Program-made: the position numbers and the translations under genes | Part shown: positions 11,804 to 12,998 of the stretch, one piece after another | Numbering within the stretch: position 1 is the stretch's first letter | Layout of the letters: every line of letters starts with the position of its first letter | Assembly (NCBI GenBank): GCA_937120535.1 | Contig: CAKZJX010000042.1 | Coordinates: forward strand, 1-64,000 | Direction: 5' to 3' | DNA length: 64,000 nt | From: an uncultured Anaerolineae bacterium | GTDB lineage: Bacteria > Chloroflexota > Anaerolineae > Anaerolineales > Villigracilaceae | Notes under the pieces: generated by a model | The model's database searches: none | Seen by the model: only the letters and a program-made list of their open reading frames with translations | What the model was told of the DNA's origin: nothing

Positions 11804-12784
11804 TCAGGAGGAAGCGCCCAGCGAGGCGACAGAGGTCGTCTGGTCGAGCGACGAGGAGAGAGGCGGGTTGACGTAGGCGCACCAGGATTCGTACTGGGGC
11901 AGTTTGCCGCGTACCGCTTGGTAGAAGACGCGCTGAATGGAGCGGGTGATCGGGCCGGTCTTACCACTGCCGATGCGGCGGAAGTCGATCTCACATAGGG
12001 CAATGCATTCTGCCGCCGTGCCGCAGACGAACACCTCATCCGCTGTGTACAGTTGATCGCGCGAGATGGGCCGCTCGTGAACTTCGTATCCCAGGTCGTG
12101 GGCAATGGTGATGATGGCGTCGCGGGTGATCCCTTCGAGCACGGTTACCGTGGGCGGGGTGAAGATGCGTCCATCGCGCACGACGAAGAGGTTTTCTCCG
12201 GTGCACTCGGCTACGTAGCCCTGGGGGTCGAGCATGATCGCTTCGTCGAAGCCCAAGCGGGCCGACTCGGTCTTGGCCAGGGCACTGTTGGCGTAGTTGC
12301 CGGAGATCTTGGCCTTGGTCATCATCACGTTCGGATGATGGCGGGTGAAGGACGAGATGTTGGCTCGCACGCCTTTTTCGAGGGCTTCTTCTCCCAAGTA
12401 GTTGGCCCATTCCCAGACGGCGATGGCCAAGGAGGGTTTACCGTTGTCAATATTCAAGTTCCAGCCCCCACCGTCTAGGTAGATCACTGGCCGAATATAA
12501 CAATCGGCAAATTCGTTGATCCGCACGGTGTCTTTGATCGCTTCAGCGACTTCTTCCCACGTCCAAGGCAGGGTGCGGAAGCCGAGCACTTCGGCTGAGC
12601 GGATCAGGCGCTGGGCGTGCTCTTTGAGGCGGAACACAGCCGGCCCCTTGTCGGTGTTGTAGGACCGAATGCCTTCAAACACCGCTACGCCGTAGTGAAG
12701 AGCGGGGGTGAGAAAATGGATGGTGGCCTTCTCAAAAGGCACGAGCTCCCCGTTCATCCAGATGTATTTTGATTGCATTCCCAT
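11804..12784 (-). CDS. ilvE: Branched-chain amino acid aminotransferase
   Basis: 326 residues of the fold-IV PLP transaminase family. The N-terminal MNGELVPFEKATIHFLTPALHYG, YGVAVFEGIR (31-40) and the lysine motif TKAKISGNYANS (Lys159 as Schiff base) are characteristic. Glu193 in YVAECTGENLF contacts the PLP pyridine. It moves amino groups between Leu/Ile/Val and 2-oxoglutarate, the last step of their synthesis. The start ATG follows GAGGTGTCCT; a second ATG two codons later is possible. The C-terminal 15 residues are a Ser-rich tail. It is preceded by a Leu/Val/Ile-rich leader ORF and a terminator hairpin, so expression is probably controlled by attenuation in response to its own products. 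Confidence 0.95.
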   Translation of the reverse strand: MGMQSKYIWMNGELVPFEKATIHFLTPALHYGVAVFEGIRSYNTDKGPAVFRLKEHAQRLIRSAEVLGFRTLPWTWEEVAEAIKDTVRINEFADCYIRPVIYLDGGGWNLNIDNGKPSLAIAVWEWANYLGEEALEKGVRANISSFTRHHPNVMMTKAKISGNYANSALAKTESARLGFDEAIMLDPQGYVAECTGENLFVVRDGRIFTPPTVTVLEGITRDAIITIAHDLGYEVHERPISRDQLYTADEVFVCGTAAECIALCEIDFRRIGSGKTGPITRSIQRVFYQAVRGKLPQYESWCAYVNPPLSSSLDQTTSVASLGASS

Positions 12785-12806
12785 AGGACACCTCGCAGTA
12801 GGGTAT

Positions 12807-12831
12807 AAAAAAGCCCCGCTTTGGGCGGGGC
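12807..12831 (-). terminator. Attenuator terminator upstream of ilvE
   Basis: Minus-strand stem GCCCCGC / GCGGGGC (12831-12825 and 12819-12813), loop CCAAA, then TTTTTT (12812-12807). It lies between the leader peptide stop and the ilvE start, 22 bp before the ilvE ATG. The strand GGGTTGGGATGGCTG within leader codons 25-29 can pair with CAGCC-G-CCCC-GCCC that includes the 5' arm, giving a competing antiterminator. Confidence 0.8.
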
Positions 12832-12858
12832 GGCTGTCTGTAGGTACATTCGGAGATG

Positions 12859-12960
12859 CTACGCCGATTCCGTCTCAGCCATCCCAACCCGTAGCAGGCC
12901 CTCGAGAATGATGACGAGGACCACCAGGATTGGGACGACTACGAGCAGGGAACCAAACAT
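12859..12960 (-). CDS. Leader peptide rich in Leu, Val and Ile (ilvE attenuation)
   Basis: 33 residues, of which 17 are Leu, Val or Ile (7, 7 and 3). They are concentrated in residues 5-23, which contain VVV, VVLV and II runs, followed by EGLLRVGMAETESA and TAG. It starts 10 nt after a TATAAT box, so the transcript has almost no leader and no ribosome site. Its stop is 28 nt before a terminator hairpin and 75 nt before ilvE. Composition, size and position match ilv leader peptides of enterobacteria and actinobacteria. Stalling at these codons when charged tRNAs are scarce would leave codons 25-29 free to form the antiterminator. The alternative, a small single-pass membrane protein, cannot be excluded from the peptide alone. 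Confidence 0.78.
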   Translation of the reverse strand: MFGSLLVVVPILVVLVIILEGLLRVGMAETESA

Positions 12961-12970
12961 GTTGGGTGTG

Positions 12971-12998
12971 ATTATAGGGAAATCAGGAAAAACGTCAA
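12971..12998 (-). promoter_or_regulatory. Sigma-70 type promoter of leader-ilvE
   Basis: On the minus strand TTGACG (12998-12993), 16 bp spacer, and a perfect TATAAT (12976-12971). The expected start of transcription is about 3-5 nt before the leader peptide ATG at 12960, making the leader peptide effectively leaderless. Confidence 0.85.

Follow-up and report, generated by a model that had tools for sequence, protein, structure and literature searches.

Is the ilvE gene of this uncultured Anaerolineae bacterium governed by a transcription attenuator that senses branched-chain amino acids, and does such a switch belong to ilvE alone? Within the window, by which we mean the whole 64,000-nt stretch of DNA analyzed here, the first-pass annotation had pointed to a promoter, a 33-residue open reading frame (ORF) with 17 branched-chain residues, a GC-rich hairpin followed by T6, and ilvE. 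All of these were found in place on the minus strand, where the element consists of the following features:

12971..12998, minus strand: sigma-70-type promoter, with -35 TTGACG (12998-12993), a 16-nt spacer and -10 TATAAT (12976-12971)
12859..12960, minus strand: leader peptide ORF MFGSLLVVVPILVVLVIILEGLLRVGMAETESA, followed by a stop; 33 codons with ATG at 12960 (translation)
12915..12941, minus strand: region 1, 5' arm of the protector hairpin, over codons 7-16, the control codons (fold of the RNA alone, 1:2 co-evolution in the family)
12876..12890, minus strand: core of region 2, GGGTTGGGATGGCTG, pairing with region 1 (protector) or region 3 (antiterminator) (simulated-stall folds, duplex, covariation)
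12823..12836, minus strand: region 3, CAGCCGCCCCGCCC, 5' arm and loop of the terminator and antiterminator partner of region 2 (duplex, folds, covariation)
12807..12831, minus strand: intrinsic terminator (3:4), with stem 12831-12813, seven G-C pairs and T6 at 12812-12807 (terminator scan)
12791..12794, minus strand: ribosome-binding site of ilvE, GAGG, 6 nt before the ATG (sequence reading)
11804..12784, minus strand: ilvE, branched-chain-amino-acid transaminase, 326 aa, ATG at 12784 (NCBIfam)

The promoter matches the consensus at 11 of 12 positions and shares its layout with the leaders of relatives. Leu, Val and Ile make up 17 of the 33 residues of the leader, which ends 27 nt before the terminator, and the IlvE protein scores over the curated cut-offs of two NCBIfam models, TIGR01122 (ilvE_I) and NF005146. 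When the 64-kb window was shuffled 20 times with its dinucleotides preserved, no ORF of 20-60 aa reached the leader's number of Leu/Val/Ile residues, and no ORF of this kind followed by a terminator arose. Judged from its sequence and from comparison with relatives, the element is very probably a transcription attenuator of the classical ribosome-mediated kind that responds to branched-chain amino acids, placed here on ilvE alone.

As only 10 nt separate the end of the -10 hexamer from the leader start codon, the promoter predicts a transcription start at about 12964-12962 and thus a 5' UTR of 2-4 nt. The leader had been described as leaderless; for the window this is plausible, given the predicted start, and the description does not extend to the attenuator family. 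The distance from the -10 hexamer to the start codon is 10-13 nt in a few relatives, 19-23 nt in most of the close ones and 30-40 nt in others.

Conservation of the Element in Chloroflexota

A simple scanner for short Leu/Val/Ile-rich ORFs followed by a terminator was run on 408 kb of sequence upstream of ilvE in related genomes. Where the start of an operon was included, it almost always returned an element ahead of ilvD, with two in series in some operons; further matches elsewhere in the 408 kb were few. A covariance model built from 20 leaders then matched 196 of 400 Anaerolineales genomes and 69 of 130 genera (E 0.01 per genome), the next gene being ilvD or ilvB in nearly all of the approximately 60 matched places that were read. 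At E 0.001, the model, whose E-values are rough, matched 34 of the 400 genomes in a sample of the phylum. Twelve of the weaker matches in this sample were read: seven lie directly upstream of ilvB or ilvD, carry Leu/Val/Ile leaders and belong to other orders of the class and to other classes, and the other five resemble chance or are ambiguous. Conservation of the leader ORF and hairpin in relatives had been set beforehand as a test of the proposal, and both were found before ilvD/ilvB or ilvE. These sequence matches place the element in a family that is conserved before the ilv-leu operon, both in Anaerolineales and in other Chloroflexota. Control of ilvE alone, as first proposed, thus describes the window and not the rule, since relatives mainly have the attenuator before the whole ilv-leu operon.

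The leaders also look translated. Their core residues are 71% Leu/Ile/Val, with 2.3% Phe, 3.6% Ala and 1.4% Gly, and the Leu/Ile/Val share falls to 34% and 7% in the other two frames, both of which contain stops. Second codon positions are conserved across the family, and Leu, Ile and Val swap freely. The frame, these conserved positions and the low Phe and Ala content all support coding of the leader.

Several loci carry two complete attenuators in series (L123:3109-3389, L125:4938-5211, L128:104-406, L198, L199, L200, L219), with a leader ORF and a terminator in each; they stand before ilvD or at a contig end. At a further locus (L130, genome G015), a second leader-like copy stands before ilvD, 60-250 nt past the first terminator; its own terminator seems degenerate and has no T-run.

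Alternative Pairings and Their Covariation

Each leader can fold into a protector (1:2), an antiterminator (2:3) and a terminator (3:4). Typical antiterminator partners are GGUUAGGAUGGC and GCCGCCCUAACC, and the conserved terminator loop participates in the pairing. In the window, the protector fold of the RNA alone has a z-score of -3.55, and the 2:3 duplex reaches -24.0 kcal/mol, its helix being lengthened by a CUG/CAG pairing, one on each side. An alternative antiterminator formed by GGGTTGGGATGGCTG had been proposed at leader codons 25-29: the pairing is borne out by covariation and duplex energy, and the codon range needs correction, since the segment runs from base 2 of codon 24 to base 1 of codon 29.

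Covariation was counted in an alignment of 106 matches that was fitted to the terminator, not to the antiterminator. The terminator helix covaries in nine of nine pairs of the family alignment. In the antiterminator, both partners have changed in 10 of 11 pairs (columns 73-184, for example, hold AU 26 times, GC 15, CG 6 and UA 4), and the covariation score is 0.185 vs. 0.128 after shuffling and at most 0.090 for slid registers. Such fixed-column counting underestimates the antiterminator, because the A that separates its two halves is bulged out in some leaders but mismatched in others. Swapping partners between leaders is free of this problem: the swap weakens the 2:3 pairing, which goes from -18.7 kcal/mol to -14.5 kcal/mol (z -17), and also the 1:2 pairing (-13.5 to -11.4 kcal/mol, z -10), whereas the controls, spacer:3 and 1:3, stay almost flat. 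The same outcome was obtained in 40 divergent leaders. Compensatory change in the antiterminator, on which the annotation had made its proposal depend, is therefore seen both in the co-varying pairs and in the weakening of 2:3 by the swap.

These pairings bear on another reading of the ORF, which takes it to encode a small membrane protein with a single span and a function of its own, the hairpin being the ordinary terminator of a short transcript. The peptide does resemble small membrane proteins in having a hydrophobic stretch and a charged tail. However, a generic membrane span would not be so dominated by Leu, Ile and Val, so poor in Phe, Ala and Gly and so tolerant of Leu/Ile/Val interchange. 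Parts of the ORF also form two alternative sets of pairings, among themselves and with the terminator, and both sets co-evolve. The relatives found at transporter genes, moreover, have leaders rich in Tyr, Trp and Phe instead. We consider this reading very unlikely.

Simulated Stalling and a Proposed Mechanism

When stalls were simulated in the window leader, those at codons 9, 12 and 16 led to the antiterminator; the terminator formed with the ribosome at codon 19, codon 23 or the stop codon, and also with no ribosome at all. In equilibrium folds of full-length RNA with a stalled ribosome, the switch appeared in only 27 of 98 leaders, the terminator winning in most, and we therefore folded the RNA as it stands just before the 3' arm of the terminator is made. 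With this truncation, some stall position gives 2:3 in 97 of the 98 leaders, and the stalls that work lie chiefly in a zone 15-28 codons ahead of the stop, the part of the leader that is densest in Leu/Val/Ile and consists mostly of their codons. At least five 2:3 pairs remain in 73 of 98 truncated folds with a simple ribosome footprint on the stop codon, and at least five form in 44 of 98 with RNA alone. As the terminator usually wins at equilibrium and the footprint at the stop codon does not prevent 2:3 in every leader, the model needs kinetics. A dependence on kinetics is usual for attenuators.

From these folds, the attenuator in the window can be pictured as follows; its start point, leader translation, stalling, termination and read-through are inferred. 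RNA polymerase would start just upstream of the leader ORF, with a ribosome following. With ample charged Leu-, Val- and Ile-tRNA, the ribosome would pass quickly, region 2 would be kept by region 1 or lie under the ribosome, and the 3:4 terminator would halt transcription before ilvE. A shortage of Leu, Val or Ile would stall the ribosome within about codons 7-16, so that region 1 is covered and region 2 is freed. Region 2 could then pair with region 3 as it emerges, no terminator would form and ilvE would be transcribed.

The Lone ilvE and Its Probable Operon

To which operon would such a gene belong? The IlvE protein places the window's genome among the Anaerolineales of Chloroflexota. Among relatives for which the upstream region was taken, the usual operon is ilvD-ilvB-ilvN-ilvC-leuA-leuC-leuD-cimA-leuB-ilvE, and ilvE follows leuB in 46 of 80 named loci. 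A search of targeted regions of the window's genome located on another contig (C35) the series ilvD-ilvB-ilvN-ilvC-leuA-leuC-leuD-cimA-leuB (NCBIfam names), with no ilvE at its end and with an attenuator of its own, whose leader is MPNVLHFLSLIVVLLAVLIIIKGLFVVGTAKARVRAAS. The window's ilvE therefore looks like the final gene of this operon, found at another place and carrying a switch copy of its own. In what order the two came to be separated is a matter of inference.

The window copy scores 61 bits against the covariance model vs. 84 bits for the operon copy, and its leader is among the more diverged. It might then be a decaying relic of the operon attenuator that no longer switches. We regard this as highly improbable, since all parts of the window copy are intact, its 2:3 duplex is strong and extended by the CUG/CAG pairing, and an attenuator precedes a lone ilvE in two further genomes. 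One of these is a genus mate of the window's genome (G005), where MNVLISPLSLIIILISVLVIKGLFVVRMTTMELKVRK and a terminator stand upstream of ilvE. Its IlvE groups with that of a genome from another genus (G023; 100/99 support), apart from the window's IlvE, which indicates either an independent event or a contaminant contig; contamination of this assembly is 6%, and its attenuator copy may be on a contaminating contig. The other is Longilinea arvoryzae KOME-1 (L106), with MYNSNGLILTLHLALLIPSLFQHGR and a terminator 65 nt upstream of its ilvE match. Neither an ilvD match nor a leuA-type match, nor ilvB above the cut-off, was found in G005, and no ilvD match was found in L. arvoryzae KOME-1. Among about a hundred ilvE loci read, three have a copy on a lone ilvE, so that the arrangement is rare. 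Such copies suggest that the switch accompanies the gene when it leaves the operon, even in genomes where no ilvD was found.

The gene content of G005 recurs in the window's genus: G001 to G005 and G007, several of them over 90% complete, have no ilvD, no leuA-type match and no ilvB above the cut-off. By gene content, these are probably branched-chain amino acid auxotrophs, unlike the window's genome and G006.

Relatives at Transporter Genes

At six loci from several genera of Anaerolineales (L197, L207, L210, L216, L218, L228), the same RNA layout comes with leaders rich in Tyr, Phe and Trp as well as Ile and Val, e.g., MTTSFGYMVIIIIMWVLYYFYYGKAPVFGWDNNGKR, upstream of genes for a periplasmic binding protein and a branched-chain-type ABC permease. 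It is possible, from their leader codons, that these copies attenuate amino acid uptake with another codon specificity. A similar leader, MHISALFFLFAYYLTSIIIMKEKYKRWDGRIR, with a terminator precedes a possible ECF transporter component and an ABC ATPase (L217:2686-2803). Together with the tandem copies, these aromatic-rich relatives make the evolution of sensor specificity testable. We raise as a tentative and rather doubtful idea that all of these copies form one portable, phylum-wide attenuator family, which would stand separately on a stray ilvE, be doubled before ilvD and be recoded for aromatic residues at amino acid ABC transporters, with the near-leaderless mRNA of the window setting its switch by initiation at the extreme 5' end.

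Comparison With Known Systems

Branched-chain genes are controlled by other kinds of RNA as well, the T-box of B. subtilis being mentioned as a control of ilv-leu genes in Firmicutes (PMC5794164). That the window element, with its terminator and alternative fold, is such a metabolite- or tRNA-binding RNA (T-box or riboswitch) carrying an ORF by chance is extremely improbable, given a leader frame that is conserved and stop-free while the other frames contain stops, and the lack of any gathering-level Rfam match in the window or operon leaders. Neither a T-box nor another riboswitch of Rfam 15 was matched in the window element or the operon leaders; Trp_leader (RF00513) reached 19.1 bits in the window, below its gathering cut-off of 41, and Leu_leader (RF00512) 29.3 bits in one relative, below its cut-off of 50. 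The ilvB-II, ilvB-OMG and ilvB motifs likewise gave no Rfam match, although Rfam 15 may not include all of them. Separately, the sequence upstream of a second ilvE-like gene at two loci (L027, L028) resembles a T-box by eye (GGGTGGTACCGCGGA followed by a hairpin and a T-run), with no Rfam match at gathering.

The preferred reading, a ribosome-mediated attenuator, has close counterparts in the ilvGMEDA and ilvBN operons of enterobacteria, whose attenuation depends on the ribosome. The Chloroflexota element resembles these in its Leu/Val/Ile-rich leader and its serial protector, antiterminator and terminator upstream of branched-chain genes. It differs in belonging to another phylum, in having no detectable sequence match to the Rfam leader families, and in occurring also on ilvE alone, there with a predicted, nearly leaderless start.

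In S. aureus, ribosome-mediated branched-chain attenuation has been proposed for the ilvD leader (PMC5794164), which likewise has a Leu/Ile-rich leader peptide and a terminator before ilvD, the first ilv-leu gene. The antiterminator proposed there frees a motif that pairs with the U tail of the terminator, whereas region 2 in Chloroflexota pairs with the terminator 5' arm and loop. Branched-chain attenuation has also been predicted in Actinobacteria (PMC1262725) and proposed in Corynebacterium (PMC10272879). The actinobacterial ilvB leaders and the ilvB-II, ilvB-OMG and ilvB motifs share with our element terminators and upstream ORFs rich in branched-chain codons before ilvB; the comparison with ilvB-OMG, a motif of various phyla, is by description, not by alignment. 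In Actinobacteria, however, the ORF overlaps the terminator and the control codons of S. coelicolor were without effect, whereas the ORF in the window ends 27 nt before its terminator and the antiterminator has covariation support.

As of 2010, leader peptide systems had, to the knowledge of the authors of PMC2965389, been shown only in Proteobacteria and Actinobacteria before their own Firmicutes case. The annotation knew of no description for this lineage, and our search of the attenuation literature on Chloroflexi, Dehalococcoides and Anaerolineae agrees, having found none of the element; an earlier prediction is possible in the survey of Lopatovskaya et al. 2010 (10.1134/S0026893310010164), which was outside this comparison. 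Tandem attenuation in itself is not new, Salmonella mgtCBR being a known case (PMC3641672). As far as could be checked, then, the mechanism is known, and the Chloroflexota lineage, the use on a lone ilvE and the tandem copies in this family are new. Backed by covariation, the element brings ribosome-mediated attenuation to a deep phylum, and it comes with a usable covariance model.
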